Positions 12,996 through 46,074 of a stretch of 64,000 nucleotides of DNA are shown piece after piece. Every line of letters begins with the position of its first letter. The stretch's first letter is position 1. The position numbers and the translations under genes are program-made. Location of the stretch: the NCBI GenBank assembly GCA_003133325.1, contig PKXA01000052.1:19487-83486 (forward strand), written 5' to 3'. The stretch comes from Acidimicrobiaceae bacterium. Lineage in GTDB: Bacteria > Actinomycetota > Acidimicrobiia > Acidimicrobiales > RAAP-2. The notes below the pieces were generated by a model. It made no database searches, was not told where the DNA came from, and saw only the letters and a list, made by a program, of their open reading frames with translations.

Positions 12996-14198
12996 TCACA
13001 GGTGCCGTTTGACGGCCATGAGGGCCGCCACCAAACCTGCCAAGGCCGCGGTGACCCCCAGGCCCGCGCCGAGACCCCAGGTATCGGCGAGCAGACCGAT
13101 GATCGGGGCACCGGCCACCCATCCGAGGTAGCCGGCTGCGGTGAATGCGCTGACGGTGGCGGTGGGCCGACTGGCAACGGTGGAGACGTGGGCCATCAAC
13201 AGTGGCCAGAAGATGGACGAGGCCCCGGCGGCCAGGGCCAGGCCGAATCCGGCCAGCAGCGGTGTGGAAGCGAGTGCTTCGAGGGCCAGTCCCGCACAGG
13301 CGCCACCGGCCCCGGCGATCACGCCCAGCCGCGGCCCGATACGGCCCAGGCTGGGACCGCCCAACCCGCGGGTGACGATGGCAATGCCTTGTCCGAGGCC
13401 GTAGGCCGACGCACCGACCAGGGCGGTAGCGGCCAGGTGGGTCCGGAGAAAGAGGACCCCCCAGGTATCCACCCCACCCTCGACGATCTCGGCGGCGGCG
13501 AAGACAATGAGCAACATGACGAGGCCATCGGCCCGCAGCAGGGCCAGGGAGCGGAGAAAAGGGACATGGGAGTCGTGATCGGCATCGAGGTGGTCAGCAT
13601 CCGCCGCAGAGGCATCCGATCGGCGTGGGTCCGATCCTCGGACATGAACCCAGGCGGCGATGGGCAGGGCGACCACCGCCACCGTTGGCCAGACCCACCG
13701 CCACGACACCTGTGCTTGCACCAGCGAGCCCAACGCAACCGCACCGAGGAGGGCACCGACGTTGAAGATGCCGTGGAACCGGACGAGGCCACCGGGCCGG
13801 TTCCCCAAGCGAGCCGCCGAGGCCGCATTCATGGTCATGTCCACGCAACCCCCGGCGGCCATGGTGGCGATGAACACCGCGATGAACTCAGTGCGGGTGC
13901 GAGCTGCGCCGGTGAGGGCCAGAAGCACAGCCCACACCAGTAGCGACCGGACCAGGGTGGGGACCGCCCCCCACCGTTCGGCCCGGTTGCCGACGATGGC
14001 CCCGACGATGCCGCTCACGGTGACGGCCACGGCCAACAGGGTGCCGAGTTGAGCGTCCGACAAGCCGTACGAGGAACGGATGTCGGCGGTAGCCACCGCC
14101 CAACTCCCCCAGAACATACCGAAGACGACGAAGGTGCCACCGATGGGAAGGAGCGCTCTACGCTCCTCGCTTCGCACCGTGGAGACCGGGGTATGCAT
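12996..14198 (-). CDS. Major facilitator superfamily transporter
   Basis: A 400-residue membrane protein with about 12 hydrophobic segments. A basic cytoplasmic loop GNRAERWGAVP lies after the second segment, a degenerate form of the MFS signature. A longer charged loop, rich in D and H, in the middle (SDASAADADHLDADHDSH) separates the two six-helix halves. It most resembles drug or sugar efflux MFS proteins, but the substrate cannot be predicted. It is monocistronic upstream of dxs with a 93-base gap. Confidence 0.85.
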   Translation of the reverse strand: MHTPVSTVRSEERRALLPIGGTFVVFGMFWGSWAVATADIRSSYGLSDAQLGTLLAVAVTVSGIVGAIVGNRAERWGAVPTLVRSLLVWAVLLALTGAARTRTEFIAVFIATMAAGGCVDMTMNAASAARLGNRPGGLVRFHGIFNVGALLGAVALGSLVQAQVSWRWVWPTVAVVALPIAAWVHVRGSDPRRSDASAADADHLDADHDSHVPFLRSLALLRADGLVMLLIVFAAAEIVEGGVDTWGVLFLRTHLAATALVGASAYGLGQGIAIVTRGLGGPSLGRIGPRLGVIAGAGGACAGLALEALASTPLLAGFGLALAAGASSIFWPLLMAHVSTVASRPTATVSAFTAAGYLGWVAGAPIIGLLADTWGLGAGLGVTAALAGLVAALMAVKRHL

Positions 14199-14225
14199 AG
14201 GAATGAAGCCTTAGGTGGGGACTGC

Positions 14226-14663
14226 TCACCCGGACCGAGGGTGGTCCGGGTGAGGGACCTCCACCACATCGAGGTCATCGATGCCGGCAAAGTCTGAGGG
14301 ATTGCAGGTGTACACCGGAAGGTCATTGGCTATCGCGGTGGCCGCGATCATTGCATCCAAGGCGCGGGCGTTGGCCTTGCGGCCGGAACGCCGCAGCGAT
14401 GATGCCACCCGCCCAAAGGCGCGAGCCGCGTCACTATCGAACGGGAGCGGATCGAAGTCGGACTCGGCTTGCTGCAGGTGTGCTTGTCGATCAGCCCGGG
14501 TTGCCTCTTGCTTTGCCAACAAGGGACCGACCGTAAGTTCCGCCAAGGTGACAGCGGTGATGAGAGGTTCCGCCGGGAGCTGGGTTGCGTCGGTGATCCT
14601 GGCAAGAAGGATGACTGTCGATGTATCGAGAATTCCACGGTCGCAGCGGTTCGACTGCATCAA
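14226..14663 (-). CDS. vapC: PIN-domain toxin VapC
   Basis: A 145-residue PIN ribonuclease. The acidic site residues are Asp in GILDTSTVILLA, Glu in VTLAEL, Asp in ALDAMIAATAI and Asp in CNPSDFAGI. It overlaps the upstream Phd-type antitoxin by 4 bases. This is the second VapC in the window and belongs to a different subfamily from the one at 1825, having the standard Glu in the second motif. Confidence 0.9.
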   Translation of the reverse strand: MMQSNRCDRGILDTSTVILLARITDATQLPAEPLITAVTLAELTVGPLLAKQEATRADRQAHLQQAESDFDPLPFDSDAARAFGRVASSLRRSGRKANARALDAMIAATAIANDLPVYTCNPSDFAGIDDLDVVEVPHPDHPRSG

Positions 14664-32833: not shown

Positions 32834-33514
32834 ATGTTGTCAAGCCTTATGCGGCGCTTGAACGAGCGGCGTGCCGCTGAGTTCGAGGCAGAAGGATCGG
32901 CTGAAGCCGGTTTCACCCTCATCGAGTTGATGGTCGTGCTGCTCATTCTGGCCATTCTGCTTGCCATCGCCATTCCTACGTTCCTCGGTGTGACGGGTTC
33001 GGCGAATGACCGGGCGGCCCAGTCCAACCTGAACACGGCGCTCACCAATGCGAAGAGCATCTATGAGCAGAACAGCCAGGCGTACCCAACGGGGACTGCG
33101 ACCACGACCTGTGCGGCCGCGGCGACCATCACCAATCTCGCGCTTGCCGTCAGCATTGGATGCAATGAGCCATCGCTCTCCATGAACACAGCCATTACCG
33201 CCGGTGACACCGTCGGGCTTGCGGCTGGGGCCACCGCCGCAATCTCGTCTAACGACGGCAATGGGGCTGTTGTCTATACATTGGCGAAAGCCACCGGTGA
33301 ATGCTGGTGGGTCTCGGACAACCCCGCGACGATCACGGCGAACGGTCCTTGGACCGCCGCAGTTGCCGGCCTCCCCGCCACAGTTGCCGGCGTCCCCGAG
33401 GCCCAAGGGGTGTACTTCGGCGTTTTCAAGGTAGGAACCAACCTGTGCAACCAGGCGGGTCTCCTTGCTGCTCATTCGAACATCGCCACACCGGGATTCC
33501 CCAAGGCAGCGTGA
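32834..33514 (+). CDS. pilA: Type IV major pilin PilA-like
   Basis: A 226-residue prepilin. The 26-residue leader ends in SAEAG, then FTLIELMVVLLILAILLAIA: cleavage after Gly, N-terminal Phe and Glu5 for pilus packing. Four or more Cys in the globular part (TTCAAA, IGCNE, GECWW, NLCNQ) could form two disulfides. ATAGGAGGACATC is a strong ribosome site. Its 3' end is followed by a 14-bp terminator hairpin. Position after pilC and the strong signals suggest it is the main subunit. Confidence 0.93.
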   Translation: MLSSLMRRLNERRAAEFEAEGSAEAGFTLIELMVVLLILAILLAIAIPTFLGVTGSANDRAAQSNLNTALTNAKSIYEQNSQAYPTGTATTTCAAAATITNLALAVSIGCNEPSLSMNTAITAGDTVGLAAGATAAISSNDGNGAVVYTLAKATGECWWVSDNPATITANGPWTAAVAGLPATVAGVPEAQGVYFGVFKVGTNLCNQAGLLAAHSNIATPGFPKAA

Positions 33515-33584
33515 CCCCCGGGTGAATCGGGCAGCGTGGCTCGATTCACTACCGAAGTCACCGGCCGGCTTGGTGTAAACCAAT

Positions 33585-33616
33585 CGACAGTGCCCCTCTT
33601 CGGAGGGGCACTGTCG
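33585..33616 (+). terminator. Strong hairpin after pilA
   Basis: Stem of 14 perfect base pairs (CGACAGTGCCCCTC paired with GAGGGGCACTGTCG) closed by a very stable TTCG tetraloop. No T-run follows, as is common for actinobacterial terminators. It may also protect the pilA mRNA 3' end. Confidence 0.8.
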
Positions 33617-33667
33617 CGGACGGGTTGAACATCACTGGCACTCGGATTGGATGTGCTCAGTTGAGAG

Positions 33668-35152
33668 ATGGAGAGAGGATGTGGCGTGGTGTTGACGGGA
33701 TCTACCCTGACTGACGAAGATGCCGAGGCGGATCCGGCAAGCATCCTCGTCTGTGTAACGAGCGAACGATTGAAAAGTGGGAGCGGCCCAATTCGCTCTC
33801 GTTGGATTCCGCTGGCGTGGAGTGTCGTGTTGGTCGCGTTTGGGATCGCGTATCTCTTGGGTTGGGGTCCGCTTGTCCTCCATCACTTGCAATGGACGAC
33901 TGGCGGCGATCTGTGGGGGATATTCCGCGCCGCTCACTATGTGGGGTGGGGCTTCTTCGGCGGTATCTACTCTTCATCGACTGGTGTCAACACGTTTCCG
34001 GGGATATCCCTGTTGCTGGCACCGCTGGCCATGGTGAGTGGAGCATTGGATCTTTCCGAGTCAGTTCCAGGAATTATGATTTCCCACCCCACTGCGGCTC
34101 TGCTGCTCCAACCGTTTGAACTACTTCTGACATGCTCCGCGTTGTTCGCGGCCGACGCTGTGGCAGTGCGTCTGGCGGTCCGCACGTCTCTCCGGGTCTG
34201 GCTCATCGGGGTAATCGCCGTCGTCGCCTGGCCGGTGGCGGCGGTTTGGGGGCATGCCGAGGACGTGCTGGCTGTCACCTTCGCCTTGCTCGCCATCCGG
34301 TTGCTCATCGATGGGAAGAGTCGCCGTAGCGGGTGGTTGATGGGCATCGGTATCGCCTTCCAACCGCTGGTCGGTTTCATACTTCCCATCGCGATGGGCA
34401 TATCTCCAGCGGGCCGGCGGGTGAAATTCTTCTTCCAGGCCGCCCTCCCGTCAGTGGTGCTGATCGGTATTGCCTTGGCCAGCGATTGGTCTGACGCCTT
34501 CCGAGCATTGGTCAAGCAGCCCACTCCACCGGCGCTCAATCACGCCACCCCATGGGTGTCATTTGCTCCTCACATCGGTCATTTCTCGGTTCCGAAGACA
34601 CAGACCGCGCTTCGGTTAGGTCAACTGCACGGTCACTTTCACACGTTTACCAGTACGGTTAATTCCAGCTCGTTGATCCTTGTCTCGGGTGGCCCGGTCC
34701 GCACCATCGGGTTGTTATTCGCGGTGCTGATCGGGTTGTTCGTGTGGCGGATGCGCCCCGACCCCATTGGAATCATGTGGCTGTGCGGTGTGGCGCTCGC
34801 TTTACGGTGCTACTTCGAGCCGGTGATGACACCGTACTACCTGGCACCTCCGCTGATTGTGGCTCTGATCGCCGCCGCCCGTATGGGCCGTCTGCGATTC
34901 GGGATTGCCGCCGCCGTCGGTCTGGCCGACACCGTATTCGCCTACTACCGGTTCTCGCCTTGGGTCTGGTGGCTTCCCGTGGTGGGCATGCTGACGATCG
35001 TTCTGGCCTGTGGATACCCGGGCCGAACGCACCTCCTGGCCGATGGGGTTGCAAGCGGCGATAACGCGAATGAGGACATCGATCCACCGATGTCCTCCGA
35101 ATTGGTCGTGAGCGTCGGGAACGCATTGGATCAGGCGATTCCACCCCGGTAG
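33668..35152 (+). CDS. Polytopic membrane protein, glycosyltransferase-like topology
   Basis: A 494-residue protein with about 10-12 hydrophobic segments and no clear catalytic motif. Features: WGPLVLHHLQWTTGGDLWG near residue 65, GWGFFGGIYSS, and ALLAIRLLIDGKSRRSGWLMG. The shape is like GT-C or GT87-type lipid-linked sugar transferases, but no DxD or similar motif is evident. It follows pilA and its terminator, so a pilin glycosylation role is conceivable but unproven. The ATG start is the first in frame and the first 40 residues could be extra. Confidence 0.55.
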   Translation: MERGCGVVLTGSTLTDEDAEADPASILVCVTSERLKSGSGPIRSRWIPLAWSVVLVAFGIAYLLGWGPLVLHHLQWTTGGDLWGIFRAAHYVGWGFFGGIYSSSTGVNTFPGISLLLAPLAMVSGALDLSESVPGIMISHPTAALLLQPFELLLTCSALFAADAVAVRLAVRTSLRVWLIGVIAVVAWPVAAVWGHAEDVLAVTFALLAIRLLIDGKSRRSGWLMGIGIAFQPLVGFILPIAMGISPAGRRVKFFFQAALPSVVLIGIALASDWSDAFRALVKQPTPPALNHATPWVSFAPHIGHFSVPKTQTALRLGQLHGHFHTFTSTVNSSSLILVSGGPVRTIGLLFAVLIGLFVWRMRPDPIGIMWLCGVALALRCYFEPVMTPYYLAPPLIVALIAAARMGRLRFGIAAAVGLADTVFAYYRFSPWVWWLPVVGMLTIVLACGYPGRTHLLADGVASGDNANEDIDPPMSSELVVSVGNALDQAIPPR

Positions 35153-35256
35153 CGGTCGTTGTTGCCGACCAATGGCACTTTCTGGCCGCCACCAGCGGCC
35201 GGGGCAGCGGTACGGAATTGGCGCTCCGCACATTGGTGCGCCGGCAACCTCCGGGC

Positions 35257-35736
35257 ATGGCCAGCACGACCAGGACCGAGTCGATCCAAACAGCCGAAGG
35301 TGAGCAGTTCGACGGCACCGCCGTCATTCCCGACGGTGGCGGCCCGGGGATCTTGTTGCTTCAAGAGATTCTCGGAGTCGGCGGATTCATGTTGGCGAAG
35401 GCAAACGATCTGGCCTCGGAGGGCCATGTCGTCTGCTGCCCTGACGTCTTCTGGCGAGTGGAGCGCGGCGTAGCGCTACCCCATGACGAGTCAACCATGG
35501 CACAGGCGTTTTCCTACGTGGAGCGCTTTGGAGCGCTCGAACCGGGCCTCACCGGGGGGGATCTGCTCGTCGGCTTGGCCCATCTCCGGGCCATGCCCGA
35601 GGTGACCGGCCCATCGACGGTCATGGGGTACTGCCTCGATGGTCGTCTCGCCTACGAAGTGGCGGTGGCCGTTGACCCCGACTGCTGTGTCTCGTACTAC
35701 GGCTCGGGTATTGCAGGTCCACATTCACGACGGTGC
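35257..35736 (+). pseudogene. Dienelactone hydrolase family gene, 3' truncated
   Basis: The first ~155 residues are a dienelactone hydrolase: GILLLQEILGVGGFM, AKANDLASEGHVVCCPD and the nucleophile elbow VMGYCLDGRLAYEV with Cys. The match ends with CCVSYYGSGIAG. The remaining ~80 residues, which should carry the catalytic Asp and His, are absent. The frame runs on across the antisense of the carboxylase gene, which is not coding. Truncation coincides with an inverted repeat at 35705-35752. The start ATG 35257 is the second in the frame. Confidence 0.65.
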
Positions 35737-35762: not shown

Positions 35763-37112
35763 TTACAGCGGCCCGATGGTGTGCTTTCGCCCGGGCAGGT
35801 GCTCTCGTGACGACTCCAGGGCGTCGAGGGCCCGGGCCACCTTCGACCGGGTATCGGCAGGGTCGATGACCTCGTCGACGAACCCCCGTTCGGCCGCTTG
35901 CCACGGGGTGAGGAATCGCTCGGTGTACTCGGCTTGGAGCTCGCCACGCTTCTCAGGTGCCGCCCGGCGGTGGAGGATCTGCACGGCGCCCTCGGCTCCC
36001 ATCACCGCGATCTCCGCACACGGCCAGGCGAAACACAGATCGTTACCCAACCCGCGGGAGTCCATCACGATGTAGGCCCCGCCGAAGGCTTTGCGGAGGA
36101 TCACGCAGACCCGGGGCACGGTGGCTTCGGCGTAGGCGAAGGCGAGCTCGGCACCGTGGCGGATCATCCCTCTCCACTCGAGGTCTTTGCCCGGCAGAAA
36201 CCCCGGCGTGTCCACCAGTGTCACCAGGGGCAGATTGAAGGCATCGCAGAACCGTACGAACCTCGCCCCCTTTTGGGAAGCAGCGATGTCGAGGGTTCCG
36301 GCCAGCGCTTGGGGTTGGTTGGCGATGAAGCCCACCGACCGGCCACCGATCCTCCCGATGGCGGTGACCAATTGGGGCGACCACCGTGACCAAAGTTCAG
36401 TGACGTCGTGATCGTCAGCCAGGGCGGCGGCCACGTTCCGGACGTCATATGAGCTTGTGGTCCGCGAGGGGATCACTTCGCGCAGGGCGGGAACCTCCCG
36501 GTCTGGCGGATCATCGAGCGGGCCCAATGGGGCCACCTCGTCGGCATTGGCCGGGAGGAGGCTGAGCAAGTTGTGGACGTGGGCCATGGCGTCGTCCTCG
36601 GTGTTGGCCTCGATGGCGCACAGCCCACTGGAACGGGCATGCATGGCGGTGCCCCCCAACTGGCGAAGCCCCAAGCGCACCCCGGTGAACTCTTCGACCA
36701 TGGCCGGCCCGGAGACGAAGGCAAACGCCTCCGATGTCATGACTACGATGTCGGCGATCCCCAACATGAGTGCCGGGCCCGAAATAGCCGGTCCGGTCAC
36801 CACCGCGATGATCGGCACCATTCCCGAACATGCGGCGATGGCCCGTGCGCCCTGTCCCCAACCGTGGAGCGAGTCGATCCCTTCGGAGACGTCAGCCCCG
36901 CTGGATGCGAGCACCAGCACCAGCGGGATCCGAAGACTCAGCGCCGCATCCGCTCCTTCTTTGATGGTGATGCCGTCCTCCAACGAGAGGGCACCCCGGC
37001 GCAGAGCCGACACCGATCGGACAACGATGGCAGGACTATTGCCCATCTCTTCGACGCCGGCTTTGACAGTTCCTCTCACCAGGGTGCGGAGAGCGGGAGC
37101 GGCGGTGGGCAC
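35763..37112 (-). CDS. Acyl-CoA carboxylase beta (carboxyltransferase) subunit
   Basis: A 449-residue carboxyltransferase of the AccD/PccB family, shorter than the usual 510-540 residues at the N-terminus. The two crotonase-like halves are visible: GGALSLEDG-like GALSLEDGITIKEG and SSGADVSEG in the first, then DTPGFLPGKDLEWRGMIRHGAE and RKAFGGAYIVMDSR in the second. It transfers CO2 from biotin to an acyl-CoA. The biotin carboxylase partner is not in the window. GTG start at 37112. Confidence 0.85.
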   Translation of the reverse strand: MPTAAPALRTLVRGTVKAGVEEMGNSPAIVVRSVSALRRGALSLEDGITIKEGADAALSLRIPLVLVLASSGADVSEGIDSLHGWGQGARAIAACSGMVPIIAVVTGPAISGPALMLGIADIVVMTSEAFAFVSGPAMVEEFTGVRLGLRQLGGTAMHARSSGLCAIEANTEDDAMAHVHNLLSLLPANADEVAPLGPLDDPPDREVPALREVIPSRTTSSYDVRNVAAALADDHDVTELWSRWSPQLVTAIGRIGGRSVGFIANQPQALAGTLDIAASQKGARFVRFCDAFNLPLVTLVDTPGFLPGKDLEWRGMIRHGAELAFAYAEATVPRVCVILRKAFGGAYIVMDSRGLGNDLCFAWPCAEIAVMGAEGAVQILHRRAAPEKRGELQAEYTERFLTPWQAAERGFVDEVIDPADTRSKVARALDALESSREHLPGRKHTIGPL

Positions 37113-37583
37113 TGACCCATGCTACGGACATGGGGTGGACTGTGCTGCGATCGGGGCGAGGTTTTGTTGATCGGTGTCGCCGGGTTGCGGAGAGGTGAGA
37201 TAGCGGTCGTGCCTGGCGTTCCGCTCGCTGCTGCCCGCTGCCCGCTGCCCGCTGCCCGCTGCCCGCTGCCCGCTGCCCGCTCCGACTCCCGTTCCACGTC
37301 GGTCCACGCCAGCGGCTCGTCCTCCCCTGTTCTCCTCATCAATCCCCAGGGCCGGGTAGAGGACCACAGATCCACACTGAACAGGGTGAACGACATGGTG
37401 AGCATGGAGGCGAATTCTGCAATTCGTTGGTCGTTCGACGGTCGGAGGCCGACGGGCAGGTGTGAATGACCAAAGGTGGAGTACGGCGGCCGGCCGCTAC
37501 GAGCACCAGACCCATCAACCCCTGCATAACCGGCGCCGAGGCTTCTGCCTCCACCACGGGAGTGGCCATCGAGCCCACCACCG
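37113..37583. other. Intergenic region with a heptamer tandem repeat
   Basis: 470 bases upstream of the carboxylase gene. It contains seven exact tandem copies of CTGCCCG (37231-37279). A leftward frame at 37430-37583 reads hydrophobic (SMATPVVEAEASAPVMQGLM) and could be the remnant of the CtaG-like gene next to it, but I see no convincing gene. Confidence 0.4.
37231..37279. repeat. Seven tandem copies of the heptamer CTGCCCG
   Basis: Exact copies with no variation over 49 bases. The lack of drift and the unit length not divisible by three suggest a variable-number repeat in non-coding DNA. It lies 120 bases upstream of the carboxylase start. Confidence 0.85.
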
Positions 37584-37952
37584 TCAGGGTGAACCGCCCG
37601 ACCGCGGTCGGCGGTCACCGCTCATACCCATCAACACCGACACCAACACCAACGGCGGCACCGTCAGGGTGAGGATGAGCCGCTGGATCACCAGGGCGGT
37701 TTGCGATCCGTGGGCGGCCAAATTGGCCAAAGGCCAGGTGAAGGCCACCGCCGCAGCCATCCCCGCACCCGCCAATGCCGGCATCTGCTCGGGTGTCCAC
37801 GGCGTGGCCCATTTGTTCGAGTGCCACACAACCCGGTGGCCGACGACGATGGCGAGGGCGGCCAACCACAACACCGCCCATGACGTGAGGTGTGGTTCCC
37901 GGGCACAGGGGCAGCCGGTGTCCATGGGTCCCATTTCCAATAGGGGTGGCAC
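37584..37952 (-). pseudogene. CtaG-like membrane protein fragment
   Basis: A 122-residue frame with two or three hydrophobic segments. WPLANLAAHGSQTALVIQRLILTL followed by VPPLVLVS recalls the cytochrome c oxidase assembly protein CtaG (caa3 type), in which a similar QHLLL..APPLL segment occurs early. The protein then stops, far short of the usual 250+ residues. A 14-base direct repeat (37579-37592 and 37659-37672) flanks the stop, so a deletion or duplication may have truncated it. It faces pafB divergently. Confidence 0.4.
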
Positions 37953-37978
37953 CGGGCGTGGGCCGCCCTAGATTGGCG

Positions 37979-38947
37979 ATGATGGCACGTCTCGATCGGC
38001 TCGAACGGGTGACCGACCTTTTGTTGGTATTGCTCGATACCCCCCGCCCGCTGAGCCTCCGAGAGATTGCCGATCGGGTACCGGGCTATCCCGATGGCCA
38101 CGCTGCCCGGCGTCAGGCCTTCGAACGCGACAAGCGCCTGTTGCGCGACGAAGGCGTGCCGGTGCTGGCCGAAGCGCTCGAGGGGCACGACCAGGTGGGC
38201 TACCGGGCCGACCCCGATGCTTACTTTCTGCCTGACCTGGGCCTCGACCATGACGAGCAGGCTGCTCTCAACTTGGCCGTCGCCGGCGTCCATCTCGGCG
38301 CGCCCACCGGCCGGACCGCCCTTTCCAAATTGGGCGCCACCGGGGAGCCCCCACTTCTCGCAGCCCCTTCGATGCCGGTGGTCGATCTGCCGTCGATGAT
38401 CGAACTTCCGGCCCTCCCCGTGCTGTTCGACGCGGTGCGCCAATCGGCCACCGTGACCTTTTTGTACCGCGGCAACGCCCGGCACGTCGATGTGGGTGCT
38501 ATCCGCTTCCGCCGGGGGTACTGGTACATGGTGGGATTCGACCGCGATCGGGGTGAGGCCCGCACGTTCCGTGTGGACCGGGTGGAGTCAGTGCCCGAGG
38601 TGGGCCCACCCTCCTCGGGCCAACTCCCCGACGGGTTCGACCCCGCCGATACCTTCTCGGTCGACCCATGGCGGTTCGGTAGTGGCGAGGAGACCGATGT
38701 CGACGTGCTGGTCGACGCGGCTGAAGCCGGACGGGTCATCGGTGAGTTGGGCGAAGGCGCGGTGGTCGAACGACGGGACGATGGGACGGTGGTGGTGAGG
38801 TTGGCGGTTACCGACCGACAAGCGCTGGTGACCTGGGTGCTCGATTGGTTGGATCACGCCGAGGTGCTGGGGCCACCCGAGGTGAGAACGGCGGTCATCG
38901 ATCGGCTGACCTCGATCGTCGCCTCCGGTGGATCGGTCGGCTCGTGA
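37979..38947 (+). CDS. pafB: WYL-domain regulator PafB
   Basis: A 322-residue regulator. An N-terminal winged helix (residues 1-60: ERVTDLLLVLLDTPRPLSLREI) is followed by a WYL domain, with VTFLYRGNARHVDVGAIRFRRGYWYMVGFD as the WYL core, and a C-terminal extension. PafB and PafC form a heterodimer that activates the LexA/RecA-independent DNA-damage response in actinobacteria and is linked to the Pup-proteasome. The start is either ATG 37979 or 37982. It overlaps pafC by 4 bases (GTGA). No Pup or proteasome gene is in the window. Confidence 0.85.
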   Translation: MMARLDRLERVTDLLLVLLDTPRPLSLREIADRVPGYPDGHAARRQAFERDKRLLRDEGVPVLAEALEGHDQVGYRADPDAYFLPDLGLDHDEQAALNLAVAGVHLGAPTGRTALSKLGATGEPPLLAAPSMPVVDLPSMIELPALPVLFDAVRQSATVTFLYRGNARHVDVGAIRFRRGYWYMVGFDRDRGEARTFRVDRVESVPEVGPPSSGQLPDGFDPADTFSVDPWRFGSGEETDVDVLVDAAEAGRVIGELGEGAVVERRDDGTVVVRLAVTDRQALVTWVLDWLDHAEVLGPPEVRTAVIDRLTSIVASGGSVGS

Positions 38948-39912
38948 GCATCCCCACAGACACCGCCGGTCGGCTGCGACAACTGCTGGCCATCCTGGCC
39001 TGGCTGGCCCAGGTGGGCGAGGCGCCGGTCGATGAGTTGGCCACCCGGTTCGACCTGACTCCCAAGGCCCTCGTCACCGAACTCGAGTTGGCCGCGTGTT
39101 GTGGACTCCCCCCGTATACCCCTGACCAATTGATGGAGATAGTCGTCACCGACACCACCGTGTCGACCCGGCTCGGAAGCGCGCTGTCCCGGCCCCGGCG
39201 GTTGAGCCCGGTCGAGGGGTTCGCCCTGGCGGCATCGGCCCGTGGGCTGTTGGCCGTCCCGGGCAGTGACGAGGACGGCGCCCTCTCCCGTGCACTCGGG
39301 AAGCTCGAGACGGCACTGGGGGCTGAGCGCCTGGTAATCGACCTCGACACTCCGCCGATGCTGGCCATCGTCAGTGACGCGGCCGCGGCGGGAGAGAGTC
39401 TGGATATCCATTACTACTCGGCGTCGAGCGACCGTCAGAGTGAACGGGAGATCACCCCTTTGCGGGTCTTTGCCTCCGAGGGGCACTGGTATGTGGACGC
39501 CACCTGCGCCCAGGCCGGCGACGTCCGCCGGTTCCGCATCGATCGGATCGATGGGGCCCGGGTCATCGAGGGGTCGGGTGGGGCGGGAGATCGCGCGGCG
39601 ATGGACGGCAAGCCCGGTGGGTTCGAAGTCTTCGTCCCCGGGCCGGATACCCGCCGGGTCCGGCTCTCACTCGACCCGGTGTTGGCCTGGATGGTGGAGT
39701 CGATCCCCACCGTGGCCCCGGTCGAACGGGTGGACGACCGCCTGGTGGTGGAGGTGGTGGTGGGAGGGGATGCCTGGCTCGAGCGGTTACTGCTCCGCTT
39801 GGGAACCGGGGCCACCGTGGTCGATCCCTCCGAGGACGCCGGGCTGGCCGCCGACGCCGCTGCCCGCATTCTGCTCAGATATCGTGTGGATATCAAAAAT
39901 AAAGAAAAATAA
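38944..39912 (+). CDS. pafC: WYL-domain regulator PafC
   Basis: A 322-residue partner of PafB with the same layout: HTH (residues 5-60), a WYL domain (SLDIHYYSASSDRQSEREITPLRVFASEGHWYVDA) and a WCX-like tail. GTG 38944 overlaps the pafB stop. In many actinobacteria tatA and tatC follow; here they do not, and an AT-rich gap leads into a relaxase gene instead, suggesting a junction. Confidence 0.85.
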   Translation: MSIPTDTAGRLRQLLAILAWLAQVGEAPVDELATRFDLTPKALVTELELAACCGLPPYTPDQLMEIVVTDTTVSTRLGSALSRPRRLSPVEGFALAASARGLLAVPGSDEDGALSRALGKLETALGAERLVIDLDTPPMLAIVSDAAAAGESLDIHYYSASSDRQSEREITPLRVFASEGHWYVDATCAQAGDVRRFRIDRIDGARVIEGSGGAGDRAAMDGKPGGFEVFVPGPDTRRVRLSLDPVLAWMVESIPTVAPVERVDDRLVVEVVVGGDAWLERLLLRLGTGATVVDPSEDAGLAADAAARILLRYRVDIKNKEK

Positions 39913-39967
39913 CAAGATGGTATAGAAAGACTTGAAACAGTACGGTTCGGGATGTGAGGATCCCGCC

Positions 39968-41296
39968 GTGCTGAAGCTCCATGTCGTCCATGTGGGCCAC
40001 CACGGGTACTACGTCGAGGGCCGCCGGCTTGGACACGGCGACGACTTGGATGTGGCCATCGAGTCCCCGGGGGCATGGACAGGGCCCGGGGCCCCGTCGC
40101 TCGGCCTGGGTGGGGTGGTGCATCCCGAGACATTTGGACGGGTGATGGAGGGTTTCGACCCGGAATCAGGACGCCGGCTCCGGTTGGGCCGGGGTGCTGC
40201 CAGCGTGGCCGGGTTCGATCTCACCTTCTGTGCTCCGAAGTCGGTGAGCCTGTTGGAGGCGCTGGCCCCTAAAGAGATCGCCACCGAAGTGGGCGCCGGC
40301 CATGATGCCGCCGTGTCCGAGGCCGGCGCCTATCTCTCCCGCACCGCAGTGGGCGTCCGCCGGGGGAGCGGCCGGTCACTGCAGCTGCTGCCGTCGACCG
40401 GCATGGTGGCCGGCGACTTCCGCCACCTGACCAGTCGGGCCCTCGATCCCCATCTCCATACCCATGTGGTGGCGGCCAACCTGGCCCAAGGGGTCGATGG
40501 CATCTGGTCAGCGGCCGACGGCCGGCGGGTCTTCGCCCACGCTCGGGCGGCCGGGTCGATCTATCAGGCGAGGCTCCGTTTCGAACTGTCGGACAGGCTG
40601 GGTGTGGAGTGGGAGGTCCGGCCTTCGGGGCTTGGCGATGTGGTGGGTGTCGACCGGGGCCTGCGGCGGCTCTTCTCGCAGCGATCAGCAGACATCGAAG
40701 AGTTTGTGGCGGTTCGCCACGGAGGTGCCTCTGGCCGTCACCCCGGCGCCTTCTATGCCACCCGACCGGACAAGGACCTCACCCGATCCCTCGAGTCACT
40801 GGTCTCGTCGTGGAAACGCCGCGCCGCAGACTTCGGGTTCGACATTGGCGATCTCTCCCAGGTGGTGGGGCGGGGTGCTCGGTTGGGGCGAGAGGTCGAC
40901 GGCGGTGTTGACCCACAACGCATGGTCGACCGACTGGAGGGAGCCGGACGACCGGAGGGCACGATGGCCCGCCGTGATCTGGTGGCGTTGGTGGCCTCGG
41001 CGTCACTGCGAGGAGCCACCGTGGCCGGCATCGACTCCACGGTGGAGCGCATCGTCACTTCGGTGGGGTCGAGAGCTGAAACAGGTAAGGGCCACGAGCC
41101 GAGGTGGCGGAGGGGAGATGTGTTGTCGGTGGCTCGCGAGCGGGGGAGTGAGTTGACGGTTCGATCCGAGCGGGTGGTCGCGCCCTCGGCTGCAGTCGGT
41201 CGACGGGCCGGGAGGGAAAGGGAGACGGCTCGCCACCTGGCCCGCACCGGAGAGCGGCGTCGTGACCGTGGCCACGACCACGGGTTGGGATTGTGA
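39968..41296 (+). CDS. MobF-family relaxase, TrwC domain only
   Basis: A 442-residue relaxase. GYYVEGRRLGHGDDL carries the candidate catalytic Tyr near residue 15, FDLTFCAPKSVSLLEALAP is the TrwC signature, and DPHLHTHVVAAN the three-His metal motif. Full MobF relaxases add a 500+ residue helicase; here it is absent. GTG 39968 is chosen because GAGG lies 8 bases upstream and TrwC proteins start just before this point; the frame is open from 39932. The tail (370-442) is basic and poorly conserved. Expected role: nicking oriT and leading DNA transfer. Confidence 0.85.
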   Translation: MLKLHVVHVGHHGYYVEGRRLGHGDDLDVAIESPGAWTGPGAPSLGLGGVVHPETFGRVMEGFDPESGRRLRLGRGAASVAGFDLTFCAPKSVSLLEALAPKEIATEVGAGHDAAVSEAGAYLSRTAVGVRRGSGRSLQLLPSTGMVAGDFRHLTSRALDPHLHTHVVAANLAQGVDGIWSAADGRRVFAHARAAGSIYQARLRFELSDRLGVEWEVRPSGLGDVVGVDRGLRRLFSQRSADIEEFVAVRHGGASGRHPGAFYATRPDKDLTRSLESLVSSWKRRAADFGFDIGDLSQVVGRGARLGREVDGGVDPQRMVDRLEGAGRPEGTMARRDLVALVASASLRGATVAGIDSTVERIVTSVGSRAETGKGHEPRWRRGDVLSVARERGSELTVRSERVVAPSAAVGRRAGRERETARHLARTGERRRDRGHDHGLGL

Positions 41297-41322
41297 TCGG
41301 GATTGTGAACTGTCCGTATCGG

Positions 41323-42795
41323 CTATCGCTCGACGCCGGGGTCGGCCCGTCGGAGCTGTTGGCGACGATGGGCCCGCCCGGAATCGCTCAACATCTTCCA
41401 CGGCTCGACCGAGTGGGCCGGTGCCAGCCGAACCCATGTCGGCTGATTCCGCTCATCGAAGGCCAGCGCCATGCCCGCCGATCCTCGGGTGATGAGGTCA
41501 GGGGGCAGCCGTCGACGCCACTGGGTGGAGGCCGACTCGCCCACGTGGGGACGGCCACCGGTGACCATGTCGGAGAACGGATGACCCGAGGGCGCCCGTC
41601 CCGAGGACACCGACCGGGTGGCGATCTCTTCGTCACCGGCCATGGTGGAGAGCGCTTCGAGTGTCCGCACGTCTCCGATGCCGGGCAGCACCACGGTGGT
41701 ACCGAACAGCGAAGGAAATCCGTCGGCCTCATCGGGCCAACGCCGTCGGGCCTGGGAGAGATCCTGCAGGCTGGCCAATGTCACCACCCCCTGTCCTCCG
41801 CCTTCGCTGATCATCGACGGCAGGTTGGGAAGGGGGGCGATGTTGGCCACCTCGTCGAGCGCAAGCAGCACCGGTGGATCCCGGCGAGTTTCACCGAAGG
41901 TCGGCTCGGAGGCGCGTTGGTAGGCCGCGGTACGCACGTCTTCGACCAGTCCGACCACCATGGGAGCGACAAGGGCCTGACGATGAGCCGGGGCACAGAT
42001 GAAGATGGTGTCGGCCGACTCCACGAAGTGGCCGGCATCGAAATCGGGGCCGGCGGTGACCGCCAGCGCCCGTTCGGTCCGGAAACCGGTAAGGGCACCC
42101 GACGCGGTGGACCAGATGCCACTCAGTTCCCGTTCATCGGTGGCGGCCATGCCTTCCAGGGCGTTGGTGGCCAGTTCTGCGATCCCTCCGGGGGTGCTGG
42201 CCAGGATTGTCTGGGCCGGAAGCGACTTTCGACGGTCCACCCAGGTCAGGACGGTCCGCATATCGGCGCCGTCGAGTGCCGCGGCGTAGAGAAGTGGTGC
42301 CAGCAACGACTGTGCCCGCTCATTCCAGTGGGTGCTGTCGTTCTGCGCCGTCCCCCGTGATCCCGCCGCGGCGGCAACCTGCACCAGAGACCGGGCCGAG
42401 CCCATGGCCCCGTCCCACGTTCCACATGCCTGCAGTGGGGACCAACGCAATGGTTCGAGATCTCCACTCGAGGCGGTCGAACCGGTGGGGTCGAAGAGAA
42501 GACATCTCCCCGATTGGGACCGTGCTGCCGCGGTGGCGTCGAGCACGTCCGGTTTGGTCGAGGTGGAGACAACCGGACCGTTGGCGGCCAACACGTTGGG
42601 AATGATCAACGAAGACGTCTTTCCAGAGCGCGGTGGACCCAACATCATCACCGACATTTCGGGTGGGGCGAAGTGCCAATCATCGCCGTCGTGTCCGAGA
42701 TAGATGCCGAACTCAGCAGAGGCCGATGCTGCGCGCGCGGCGAGCAGGTACTTCGTTTCGCGCTGTTTATCGGTCGAATGCGAAAAAAATGTCAT
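41323..42795 (-). CDS. VirD4/TraG-type coupling protein without membrane domain
   Basis: A 490-residue ATPase. Walker A is LGPPRSGKTSSLIIP near residue 55, Walker B PVLLALDEVANIAPLP, and a GTTVVLPGIGD-type segment follows, as in TraG/VirD4 coupling proteins. They bring relaxase-DNA to a type IV secretion channel. The N-terminal membrane helices are missing; it starts only about 45 residues before the nucleotide fold. It converges with the relaxase gene (26 bases between stops). No other transfer gene is in the window. Confidence 0.85.
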   Translation of the reverse strand: MTFFSHSTDKQRETKYLLAARAASASAEFGIYLGHDGDDWHFAPPEMSVMMLGPPRSGKTSSLIIPNVLAANGPVVSTSTKPDVLDATAAARSQSGRCLLFDPTGSTASSGDLEPLRWSPLQACGTWDGAMGSARSLVQVAAAAGSRGTAQNDSTHWNERAQSLLAPLLYAAALDGADMRTVLTWVDRRKSLPAQTILASTPGGIAELATNALEGMAATDERELSGIWSTASGALTGFRTERALAVTAGPDFDAGHFVESADTIFICAPAHRQALVAPMVVGLVEDVRTAAYQRASEPTFGETRRDPPVLLALDEVANIAPLPNLPSMISEGGGQGVVTLASLQDLSQARRRWPDEADGFPSLFGTTVVLPGIGDVRTLEALSTMAGDEEIATRSVSSGRAPSGHPFSDMVTGGRPHVGESASTQWRRRLPPDLITRGSAGMALAFDERNQPTWVRLAPAHSVEPWKMLSDSGRAHRRQQLRRADPGVER

Positions 42796-42801
42796 ATCCA
42801 C

Positions 42802-43087
42802 CTAACGCCGCAATCGCGGTTGGCAATGCCTTGTTGTGTCGGCGAACGTCAAGTGTTCGCAACTCGACCGCGTGTCTCGCGTAGGTAAATAATCCTTGCA
42901 AACAAACAGGTTTTTGTCCATGGTCAATTGTGAGCGGCGTGTAGTGACGCTGTTGACGCGCGCAGTCGTGGCCGAACATGGACTTCTCTGCGGAGTGCGG
43001 ACGCGCGTCAATACACGCGAGGGTCCTTGATCTGAGCCCGAAAAACCATAAAGATATTTATGATTGCAATTCGCTGAGGAGGTGATC
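42802..43087. other. AT-richer divergent region with inverted repeats, possible origin of transfer
   Basis: 286 bases between the coupling protein and HU genes, clearly less GC-rich than the flanks. It contains a 10-bp perfect inverted repeat (TTGACGCGCG at 42953-42962 and CGCGCGTCAA at 43002-43011, 39-base spacer) and a 6-bp one (GCGAAC 42842, GTTCGC 42855). Both could be operators or an oriT. No direct evidence. Confidence 0.4.
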
Positions 43088-43471
43088 GTGAACAAATCGC
43101 AACTAGTCCGAGCAGTCAGTGAGACAACATCGTTGGGTCGCCGAACTGTCGAGGATGTGGTTGATGCTTTGTTCGATTCGGTCGTCACCGCGGTTCAGTC
43201 TGGACGGAAGGTGACGGTGATCGGTTTCGGGACATTCAACCCGACCACCCGTTCCGCTCGTTTGGGTCGAAATCCGCGGACCGGTGCAGCGGTACCAATC
43301 CCGGCGTCGAAAGGTGTCCGGTTCGCCACCAGTTCAGCGTTCAAATCCGCGTTGAACTCCAAGGAGGGAGCACCCATGGCAGTGAAGAAAGCTGCGAAGA
43401 AGGCAGTGCGTAAGGCTCCGGCCCGTAAGGCGGCAGCTCGTAAGGCTGTGAAGAAGGCCGTCCGCAAGTAG
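43088..43471 (+). CDS. hup: HU-family DNA-binding protein with short Lys/Ala-rich tail
   Basis: A 127-residue nucleoid protein. Residues 1-90 are the HU fold: SQLVRAVSETTSLGRRTVEDVV, then the DNA arm GFGTFNPTTRSARLGRNPRTG. Residues 95-127 are a tail of KKAAKKAVRKAPARK type, like mycobacterial HupB/Hlp but shorter. GTG 43088 has a full GAGGAGGTGAT ribosome site. A 17-bp terminator follows. It may aid compaction or help relaxase-type DNA processing; the first is more likely. Confidence 0.92.
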   Translation: MNKSQLVRAVSETTSLGRRTVEDVVDALFDSVVTAVQSGRKVTVIGFGTFNPTTRSARLGRNPRTGAAVPIPASKGVRFATSSAFKSALNSKEGAPMAVKKAAKKAVRKAPARKAAARKAVKKAVRK

Positions 43472-43499
43472 TAGATCGACGGCTCTGCCGTCATCAGAC

Positions 43500-43537
43500 G
43501 ACGAACAGCAGGGGCCTGCGGGCCCCTGCTGTTCGTC
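43500..43537. terminator. Bidirectional terminator between HU and the deacetylase gene
   Basis: 17-bp perfect stem (GACGAACAGCAGGGGCC with GGCCCCTGCTGTTCGTC) around a TGCG loop. It lies between convergent genes and so can serve both. Confidence 0.85.
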
Positions 43538-43538
43538 T

Positions 43539-44375
43539 CTACAGGTTGCTGATCAGGTGGAAGGCTTCGCCGACCGGAAGGGTGGCCAGGGCCCCATGGG
43601 CGGCCAACTGGTGATGGACCTTGGCCGCGAAAGGATCGACGTCGGGGTGCGGTGCCAGGTCGGACAGTCGACCCGGATCAATCCCCATGGTGGTGACCTG
43701 TTGGCTGGCGTGACACAGCAGGGCGTCGATCTTCGCCGCCTCGAACCCGGCCGCATCTTCGACGTGGTTGGGTAGGTCTGCCTCCCACAGCAACAGAGAC
43801 GTGGGCCGATGAGGGGCCGGGCCGATGTCGGGGAAGAAGTGGGGGTCTCGGGCGGCCACCAACGCGTCGAGGCTGAGGAAGCCGGCGTTGCGATGGTCGG
43901 GATGGAGTCGGTATCGCCTCCACGGGTCGTGAGCGAGCACCACGGCCGGACGGAGCGAACGGATGACACGAGCCACCTTTTGCCGTTCTTCTTCTCCGTT
44001 GACGAGTTCGCCATCCACTTGACCCAGGAACAGCACCCGGTCGTCGGAGGACGGGCCTGACGCTGCCCCGTCGATAACCACGGCCGCAGCTCGACACTCA
44101 ATCTCTCGGGCCGCCACCAGGGCGGCCAGGTCTTCGTCGGGATCCCAACTTCCCTTGGACCCATCGGTCAGCACCAGGTGATGTACCCGGCATCCGGCAT
44201 CAGCCCACTTGGCCAGCGTGGCACCGCACCCGAATTCAATGTCGTCGGGGTGCGCACCGATAGCCAAGGCACTCGACGGGATGGGGAGATCAATGGTCAC
44301 CGGTCCATCGACGAGCAGGTCGCCCACCGGGAGCCCGCTCGGCTGCGACCATCGTTCGTCGCCGGGACGGTTCAT
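43539..44375 (-). CDS. PIG-L family deacetylase
   Basis: A 278-residue LmbE/PIG-L protein. Zinc motif AHPDDIEFGCGATLAKW near residue 40 and HPDHRNAGFLSLDALVAARD later, where the His is the third ligand. Such enzymes remove acetyl from GlcNAc-linked compounds, for example in mycothiol synthesis (MshB) or mycothiol conjugates (Mca). The specific substrate is not clear. It overlaps cofC by 4 bases, so it is the second gene of that operon. Confidence 0.88.
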   Translation of the reverse strand: MNRPGDERWSQPSGLPVGDLLVDGPVTIDLPIPSSALAIGAHPDDIEFGCGATLAKWADAGCRVHHLVLTDGSKGSWDPDEDLAALVAAREIECRAAAVVIDGAASGPSSDDRVLFLGQVDGELVNGEEERQKVARVIRSLRPAVVLAHDPWRRYRLHPDHRNAGFLSLDALVAARDPHFFPDIGPAPHRPTSLLLWEADLPNHVEDAAGFEAAKIDALLCHASQQVTTMGIDPGRLSDLAPHPDVDPFAAKVHHQLAAHGALATLPVGEAFHLISNL

Positions 44376-44980
44376 GAGAACGCGGAGGCGGGCGTGGTGG
44401 AGACGGGGATGACATCAGCGGGTTCGTCGATGTCCCAGGCGAGGTCAGGGCGATCGAGGACCCGGACGGGGAGACCGGTGCGGGCAGCTTCGGTCCGGTG
44501 GCGGGCGAAGGAGCCGGGCCCGTAGGAGAACCGGAACCCGGCGTCGGCCGGGATCACAATGACATTGGTGCCGTTTCCGAATCGATCGGGCACCAGGGTC
44601 ACCCCGGGAGCGTCTCCAACCGAGAAGAGGTCCGAAGCCCGGGGGAGATCGGCGTGGGCCACCGTCACCTGTTCGACCCCCCGCCGAGATAGGAGCTCCA
44701 CGCCCGCCTCCACCGCGCCGTTGAGGCCCCGTCCTGGTTCCCACACGACCAACGCACCCCGCGACCGGGCCCAGGCGGCTACTTCGTTGTTGTCGCAGAC
44801 CACTGCGACCGGCAATGGGAACGCCGCCGCCAATACCCGATCGGCCATGGCAGCGGCCAGCGCGGCCCGCTCGTCTTCACTCAACGCGGTATCGAGGCGA
44901 CCCTTGGCCTCTCTGAATGCCTTGACCGGCACCAGCACGGCTCGGGGGCCGAAAGGCAATGCGTCGCCCGGGAACTGCAT
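44372..44980 (-). CDS. cofC: 2-phospho-L-lactate guanylyltransferase CofC
   Basis: A 202-residue enzyme of coenzyme F420 synthesis that activates 2-phospholactate (or phosphoenolpyruvate in actinobacteria) with GTP. Motifs: VPVKAFREAKGRLD, VTVAHADLPRASDLF with the metal-binding D and FGNGTNVIVI. I chose ATG 44980; the upstream 25 codons are open but unconserved. Divergent from gpsA with a short gap. Confidence 0.85.
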   Translation of the reverse strand: MQFPGDALPFGPRAVLVPVKAFREAKGRLDTALSEDERAALAAAMADRVLAAAFPLPVAVVCDNNEVAAWARSRGALVVWEPGRGLNGAVEAGVELLSRRGVEQVTVAHADLPRASDLFSVGDAPGVTLVPDRFGNGTNVIVIPADAGFRFSYGPGSFARHRTEAARTGLPVRVLDRPDLAWDIDEPADVIPVSTTPASAFS

Positions 44981-45066
44981 CCGTTGGTCGGCGCCTTCCA
45001 CTCCGTCAGTGTAGGGGGGTCCCGACGGGGCAACCGTCCGGCCGGCGTGGCGCATAGTGTGGCCCC

Positions 45067-46074
45067 GTGTCAGAAAAAGTTGCCGTCATCGGCGCAGGTT
45101 CGTGGGGAACAACCGTGGCGGCACTGGCAGCGGGCAATTCCCCCACCGTGCTGTGGGCACGGGATCCGGTGGTGGCGGAGACCCTTCGCACCGAGCACCG
45201 CAATCCGTCCTACCTCCCCGAGTTCCGCCTGCCCGACCGGCTCGATGCCACCGCTGACATCGAAGCCGCGGTGGCGGGGGCTTCATTGGTGATCATGGCG
45301 GTTCCGTCCCATGGTTTCCGCGCCGTGGCCGCCGATCTGGCCGAGGTGCTCGCCGACGGCACTCCGGTCCTAAGTCTCACCAAGGGATTGGAACAGGGGA
45401 GCCACCTTCGCATGACCGAACTGTTGGCCGAGGTGGTGCCGCACAGCCCGGCCGGCGTGCTCACCGGGCCCAACCTGGCTTCCGAGGTAGCGGCCGGCCA
45501 ACCGACAGCCGGTGTGGTTGCCCTGGCCGACGGGGACCAGGCGCGCTGGGTCCAGGGCCTGTTGGTGTCGGATACGTTCCGCGTTTACACCAACGGAGAC
45601 GTCGTCGGGTGCGAGATCGCCGGGGCCCTCAAGAACGTGCTGGCGGTGGCGGCCGGCATCTCGGACGGACTGGGGTTCGGCGATAACACCCGAGCGGCAA
45701 TGATCACCCGCGGCCTGGCCGAGATGGCTCGGTTGGGCCAGAAACTGGGCGGGGACGTCATCACCTTCAGCGGTTTGGCCGGGGTGGGAGATCTGGTCGC
45801 CACCTGCACCAGTTCGAAGAGTCGGAACCATACCGTCGGGGTGGCTCTCGGCCAGGGGCGGTCACTGGCCGATGTGATGGGCGAGATGCGGATGGTGGCC
45901 GAGGGAGTGAAGACCGCCCGGCCCATGGTCGAGTTGGCTGCCTCCGTCGACGTGGAGGTTCCAATCGCCTCGCAAGTGGCCGACATGATCGATGGGATCC
46001 AGAGTCCGGCAGAGGCAATCGCCGCTCTCATGCAGCGTCCGGCCACCTCCGAGTTCGGGAATCTTCGACCATGA
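45067..46074 (+). CDS. gpsA: Glycerol-3-phosphate dehydrogenase (NAD(P)+)
   Basis: A 335-residue enzyme that reduces dihydroxyacetone phosphate to sn-glycerol-3-phosphate for phospholipids. The nucleotide fold is VAVIGAGSWGTTVAA. The substrate-binding catalytic Lys is in EIAGALKNVLAVAAGISDG, and FGDNTRAAMITRGLAEMARLG follows. GTG 45067. Overlaps the adenylate cyclase gene by 4 bases. Confidence 0.95.
   Translation: MSEKVAVIGAGSWGTTVAALAAGNSPTVLWARDPVVAETLRTEHRNPSYLPEFRLPDRLDATADIEAAVAGASLVIMAVPSHGFRAVAADLAEVLADGTPVLSLTKGLEQGSHLRMTELLAEVVPHSPAGVLTGPNLASEVAAGQPTAGVVALADGDQARWVQGLLVSDTFRVYTNGDVVGCEIAGALKNVLAVAAGISDGLGFGDNTRAAMITRGLAEMARLGQKLGGDVITFSGLAGVGDLVATCTSSKSRNHTVGVALGQGRSLADVMGEMRMVAEGVKTARPMVELAASVDVEVPIASQVADMIDGIQSPAEAIAALMQRPATSEFGNLRP

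Follow-up and report, generated by a model that had tools for sequence, protein, structure and literature searches.

The window, a stretch of 64,000 nucleotides from an Acidimicrobiaceae genome, contains a short relaxase gene and, facing it, a gene for a soluble coupling ATPase. Our reading, held with moderate confidence, is that the pair makes up half of a chromosomal machine for DNA transfer that a large clade of Acidimicrobiales has domesticated and passes on vertically, and that the type IV secretion system (T4SS) encoded at a second locus belongs to it. This reading draws on predicted folds and catalytic residues, on vertical inheritance and purifying selection, on the fixed positions of the loci and on the co-occurrence with the T4SS. 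The nicking activity, the cooperation with the T4SS, and the direction and destination of the DNA are predictions from the sequences. Bacterial conjugation systems are portrayed in PMC9905601 as belonging to mobile elements, with hyperthermophilic archaea having domesticated one of them for cellular DNA. Across the bacterial clade described here, which includes Aciditerrimonas ferrireducens MV1, the relaxase, the coupling ATPases and the secretion channel are passed on alongside housekeeping genes.

A convergent gene pair at a fixed chromosomal position

The relaxase gene (39968..41296, + strand) encodes 442 amino acids from GTG 39968, within a reading frame that is open from TTG 39932. In alignments the orthologues open with 'ML..' at the position equivalent to GTG 39968, making this start, also chosen in the first-pass annotation, better supported than TTG 39932. 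The gene of the coupling ATPase (41323..42795, - strand; 490 amino acids from ATG 42795, reading frame from GTG 42801) converges with it, and the coordinates confirm the 26 bases between the two stops (41297-41322) that had been reported. Upstream lie pafB (37892..38947, + strand; a WYL protein matching PF13280 and PF25583) and pafC (38845..39912, + strand; HTH_PafC and WYL, PF19187 at 4.3e-25), the latter separated from the relaxase start by 55 bp, a spacing that makes co-transcription possible. Downstream, a gene for an HU-like DNA-binding protein with a Lys/Ala-rich tail (43064..43471, + strand; PF00216 at 7.1e-27, probable start GTG 43088) precedes a housekeeping block of PIG-L deacetylase (-), cofC (-) and gpsA (+) at 43539..46074, assigned by profiles. 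All of these neighbours are conserved in synteny.

Similarity searches covered one family with 61 genomes and, from the rest of its order, 39 more, 100 related genomes in all. Throughout the family the order is pafB, pafC, relaxase, the oppositely oriented coupling ATPase, HU, (PIG-L), cofC and gpsA, as mapped in 60 fetched stretches, apart from single neighbours that drop out at contig ends or for want of similarity. The relaxase occupies the pafC site in 58 of the 61 family genomes, which bears out conservation at this position, the check that had been proposed. This count comprises 55 fetched family stretches (in L085 the relaxase escaped tblastn and was recognised by eye in the three-frame translation), the window, G059, and G025, in which only the relaxase start is assembled behind pafC. 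For the other three genomes (G035, G037 and G058) the search gave no match to pafC in the assembly, and for that reason their pair locus is probably unassembled. In G055 pafC went undetected, yet the relaxase-ATPase pair is present. The named loci come mostly from Acidimicrobiaceae or Acidimicrobiales metagenome genomes, many with isolate names that point to palsa, bog, fen or lake, and the pair is also found in genomes of 1.5-2 Mb. The cultured Aciditerrimonas ferrireducens MV1 carries pafB, pafC and a short relaxase (L211), with the ATPase-HU-PIG-L-cofC-gpsA block on a separate contig (L174) and a T4SS cluster at L212.

AT-rich flanks and the absence of tat genes after pafC had been taken as marks of acquisition in the first-pass annotation. 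The pair has a GC content of 67-69%, similar to its neighbours, and the AT content rises only in short stretches between genes and around the HU promoter; AT-rich flanks are thus not supported as a mark of acquisition, and we reject a foreign composition. Directly behind pafC a tat-like ORF was, by eye, also unseen in 16 genomes from families without a core-type hit in the coupling-protein search, about seven of which have a signal-peptidase-I-like ORF; the missing tat genes are not supported as such a mark. The further statement that no mating-pair, integrase or replication gene lies near holds among the nine scanned genes at 35763-46074, but a T4SS cluster is present on another contig (L110). 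Elsewhere in the window, a short tandem repeat of GCTGCCC units fills part of the gap between a carboxyltransferase gene and pafB (37230-37300), and strong AT-skew excursions at 13000-14500 and 33500-35500 (+0.31 and -0.33) differ from the remaining sequence.

Both genes show the signature of ordinary purifying selection. Comparison of three close genomes gave dN/dS values of 0.13-0.22 for the relaxase, the second proposed check, and of 0.16-0.24 for the ATPase, in the same range as for pafB, pafC, cofC and gpsA; ratios for HU, a short gene, were unstable. The refuting pattern named beforehand, a sporadic presence with disrupted frames, was not what we found: the family's relaxase rows at this locus contain no internal stops, and two ATPase rows (G022 and G059) contain one each. 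Rank correlations of patristic distances reach 0.86 for relaxase and pafC, 0.86 for relaxase and VirB4, and 0.84 for ATPase and gpsA, values reached by none of 300 permutations. The correlations of relaxase with pafC and of ATPase with gpsA are as strong as those of the housekeeping genes among themselves.

No oriT or nic site was recognised, and an intergenic scan gave no shared candidate. The window has inverted repeats, and over 14 intergenic stretches the mean longest hairpin stem was 5.9 versus 4.2 in mononucleotide shuffles of these few sequences, with nothing specific among them; nor were the words shared between the 14 stretches oriT-specific. Two of these words, GCTTGACCT and TTGTTTGCA, stand upstream of HU in about half of the stretches (L031-L042, L045 and the window) and are probably promoter elements. 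The conserved words between ATPase and HU resemble translation and promoter signals of HU.

Conserved residues and missing domains

The window relaxase matches the TrwC profile PF08751 at 6.6e-65 and the MobF profile NF041492 at 1.4e-58. Its AlphaFold model (pLDDT 84, pTM 0.84) finds TrwC structures 1qx0 and 1osb as best Foldseek matches, with an E value of 1e-19 and a TMt of 0.85-0.88 (0.87 for 1qx0). Profiles, alignment and predicted fold agree on a TrwC-type HUH domain with three metal-binding histidines. These residues, H165, H176 and H178 in the numbering of the 454-aa frame, lie in FRHLTSRALDPHLHTHV (40424..40465, + strand), are invariant in alignment A2, and read H/H/H in every family frame that is legible there (55 of 56, the last one having a run of N). 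The first nicking tyrosine, predicted from residue conservation (40007..40009, + strand; Y14 from the GTG start, Y26 from the TTG start), is invariant in the 44-row alignment A3 and stands in every family frame with an assembled N-terminus. It is visible in 53 of 55 readable frames, the other two (L058 and L083) being truncated N-terminally. The mis-picked frames L114 and L165 were excluded; script-set starts were wrong in L082, L083 and L084, with the tyrosine read upstream by eye in L082 and L084; and L065 contains an N run. The catalytic residues are thus kept wherever they are readable, down to about 26-30% identity.

Two other hallmarks of MobF relaxases are missing from the window protein, namely the second tyrosine pair of motif I and the C-terminal helicase with its Walker A motif. 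A profile search of the protein gave no helicase domain, in line with the first-pass description of a relaxase without helicase facing a coupling protein without membrane part. The same losses extend through the core lineage: pattern searches, with inspection of the segments, found a helicase Walker A in 0 of 73 relaxases and a second tyrosine pair in 0 of 73, a set that includes a few genes twice (L148 and L195, with identical printed segments and length, are apparently the same gene). The G091 relaxase (L192) has one extra lone Tyr. In sister families the relaxase gene on the pafC side is long (766-1063 aa), and its helicase is nonetheless without Walker A; the helicase region of L090 still matches AAA_30 at 1e-23. 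Among the other MobFs of the same order, Walker A is present in 23 of 25, and both tyrosine pairs are plain in 11, with variant forms in 5 and 9 that the pattern could not score. In a distance tree built for core and mobile relaxases, just three mobile rows remained, and the tree was left unused.

The roles proposed for TrwC in PMC10359608 are strand carriage for Y18 and rejoining of the ends in the recipient for Y26. A 2025 review (PMC12857230), where it treats MobF, reports up to four tyrosines, of which two are required for efficient transfer, as is the helicase; this requirement counts against a transfer role for the core protein. Since the second tyrosine pair and the helicase are lost and the nicking residues are kept, the pattern suggests that the core relaxase would initiate without recircularisation.

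The coupling ATPase is of the VirD4/TraG type and matches PF02534 at 1.7e-23 and PF12696 at 1e-19. Sequence, alignment and predicted fold (pLDDT 86) support a RecA-like ATPase, with Foldseek matches to Cag-beta (8dol) and TrwB-deltaN70 (1e9s), and to HerA-type translocases at lower rank. Its Walker A motif (GPPRSGKT; 42616..42639, - strand) is intact as GPxR[SA]GKT in 57 of 57 loci, and the Walker B region (LDE; 41851..41859, - strand) in 56 of 57. The N-terminal membrane anchor of VirD4-type proteins is missing: the window protein has no TM-like stretch, and the same holds for 56 of the 57 loci.

A T4SS cluster at a second chromosomal site

Most family genomes encode a second coupling protein, a VirD4 with an N-terminal TM-like stretch. 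The cluster around it encodes a VirB2-like two-TM protein (DUF6112), a polytopic VirB6-like protein, a PrgI/EccE-like protein and VirB4 (PF19044), VirB labels here being based on topology, gene order and weak profile matches. In the window's genome it is located on another contig (G000:C18, locus L110). The cluster adjoins senX3-regX3, and often serS and ppgK too, in 15 of the 20 family stretches fetched for the second coupling protein; the remaining five comprise three incomplete stretches (L092, L096 and L098), L105, where ppgK is present with senX3 not nearby, and L091, a different element. A VirB4 relative was found in 57 of the 61 family genomes, not in every case placed at the senX3-regX3 site. 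In G025 and G043 the cluster begins at this site and runs off the contig end, G050 has a fragmentary cluster, G015 gave no VirB4 match, and G028 has lost the T4SS and retained both genes of the pair. At the G028 site (L216:8255-10584, G028:C1) a Phd/VapC-like antitoxin-toxin pair replaces the T4SS, and a truncated VirB2 stub is left between ppgK and senX3. The PF03135 profile, the wrong model for this type of T4SS, gave 0 of 62 family genomes, and the system was located instead via VirB4 and the second coupling protein. The PF19044 profile yielded no more than 2 of 7 weak matches, and therefore absence by this profile means little.

The senX3-side arrangement recurs in other families (L194, L198, L200, L202, L203, L205 and L207) and in Aciditerrimonas (L212). 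In G075 the relaxase itself adjoins, divergently, a VirB2-VirB6-EccE-VirB4 run (L191), the only case among the mapped stretches in which relaxase and T4SS are neighbours. A core-type coupling ATPase (E<=1e-60) is found in 10 of the 39 non-family genomes of the order. All ten have a MobF-derived relaxase without Walker A and all ten have VirB4, nine at E<=1e-100 and one, G091 (a single contig of 2,158,157 bases), as a divergent copy inside a cluster beside senX3. None of the other 29 reaches E<=1e-100 for VirB4. In a wider sample of the order (148), the core ATPase, at 336 bits or more, is present in about 19 families, in most of them in every listed genome, the listing of non-matching genomes being incomplete. 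A sample of 198 from the phylum yielded none outside the order at this score (best 312 bits). The window's genome has further T4SS-like clusters of mobile-element type (L091 at G000:C49:49000-67000, and G000:C63 and C66), one of which encodes a 1249-aa SNF2-like protein.

Possible roles and related systems

If the two loci work together, the relaxase would nick one strand at some chromosomal site via its single tyrosine pair and stay on the 5' end. Displacement of the strand would fall to a host helicase or to replication, because the unwinding motor of the relaxase is gone. The soluble coupling ATPase may then escort or pump the nucleoprotein to the T4SS of the second locus, whose VirB2-, VirB6- and PrgI/EccE-like proteins, VirB4 and anchored VirD4 would export the strand, with an adjacent cell as the most likely destination. 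With the second tyrosine pair and the motor both lost, the process would look like one-way donation of chromosomal segments, Hfr-like and for recombination, rather than self-transfer of a circle; a single-tyrosine, motor-less relaxase predicts such donation without recircularisation. These soil and water actinobacteria may be equipped by nature to donate their own DNA. Were chromosomal DNA export confirmed, gene exchange would be a cellular trait in these bacteria and not a plasmid side effect, and the old question of whether bacteria keep conjugation for themselves would become testable.

Because no oriT was found, and because G028 lost its T4SS and kept the pair, this function is one that we infer. 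Other observations also pull against it: the T4SS has its own anchored VirD4, leaving a second, soluble coupling ATPase unexplained; adjacency of relaxase and T4SS is confined to G075; G015 and G050 lack a VirB4 match and a complete cluster, respectively; and vertical descent alone suffices for the co-variation of distances. A serious rival, which we nonetheless consider unlikely, is that the relaxase and the soluble ATPase have a joint intracellular task (repair, replication restart or chromosome processing) that is tied to PafBC and independent of a T4SS that forms a separate core system. The retention of both genes in G028 fits such a role, as do the anchorless ATPase with its lower-ranking HerA-type matches, the loss of motor and second tyrosine, and the constant place of the relaxase 55 bp behind pafC. 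It fits poorly with the co-occurrence of core ATPase and core-type VirB4 among the 39 non-family genomes and with the gene arrangement in G075. A PafBC-type promoter motif is moreover at chance level in the window (5 matches versus 3.0 expected); in L110 it gave 3 versus 0.64 expected, none of them placed as a promoter. The chromosomal DNA-processing pair with a new function, offered in the first-pass annotation, came closest to the evidence but is incomplete, as a chromosomal T4SS cluster co-occurs.

The sequences do not decide in which direction DNA moves. Release of ssDNA to the medium, as by the gonococcal genetic island (GGI; PMC12857230), or import, as by the archaeal Ced system (PMC9905601), seems to us a less probable alternative still to cell-to-cell donation. 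Both precedents exist, the T4SS is of a small monoderm type, and no adhesin or pilus genes were identified; however, Ced appears without a relaxase in the pertinent passages of PMC9905601, and the GGI relaxase is given as MobH in PMC12857230. Very improbable, in our view, is an integrated mobilisable element or a decaying relic, the minimal mobilisation unit or relic of the first-pass annotation. The proteins do derive from conjugation families, the helicase has decayed and G028 has lost its T4SS. Against this stand the occurrence at one site between constant neighbours (58 of 61 family genomes) and no integrase among the nine scanned genes, unlike integrative mobilisable or conjugative elements, the housekeeping-like dN/dS and congruent distances, the catalytic residues kept at low identity, and the presence in small genomes. 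We rejected a mobile unit or relic on synteny, selection and catalytic conservation.

Returning to chromosomal DNA transfer, the core relaxase shares its predicted fold, HUH histidines and first nicking tyrosine with the MobF proteins TrwC and TraI of R388 and F, but differs in lacking the second tyrosine pair, in a helicase that is missing or without Walker A, and in its fixed clade-wide chromosomal locus at which no oriT was found. The coupling ATPase resembles TrwB/VirD4 in fold and Walker motifs, but is anchorless and encoded opposite the relaxase, with a second, anchored VirD4 in the T4SS cluster. The closest parallel in organisation is Ced/Ted, described in PMC9905601 as a chromosomal, lineage-wide T4SS derivative with VirB2, VirB4 and VirB6 homologues; VirB4 spread, fixed site and congruent distances give the same picture of a vertically inherited T4SS here. 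In contrast to that archaeal system, the Acidimicrobiales one is bacterial and has coupling ATPases and a relaxase with conserved catalytic residues. The Patescibacteria T4SS is likewise lineage-wide, chromosomal and of monoderm type, but the relaxase, part of the conserved set in Acidimicrobiales, is mostly missing there according to PMC12102498. GGI, as presented in PMC12857230, combines a chromosomal T4SS with a relaxase and is an island, whereas the Acidimicrobiales genes occupy two fixed loci among housekeeping genes. Our literature search, with limited terms, found no description of a relaxase or T4SS conserved in Acidimicrobiia or Acidimicrobiales. We tentatively propose, as a broader claim held with less than even confidence, a permanent housekeeping-like conjugation apparatus in about 19 Acidimicrobiales families, with a relaxase free of recircularisation and unwinding. 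It would serve to export the chromosome of the cell itself, and among bacterial counterparts of Ced it would be the first to keep a relaxase.

Two canonical MobFs of the searched genomes, L029 (G058:C293) and L219 (G052:C193), have Walker A and, in the segments seen, two tyrosine pairs. The coupling ATPases near them are 48-51% identical to the core ATPase, and mobile genes of this type are possibly the source of the core pair.
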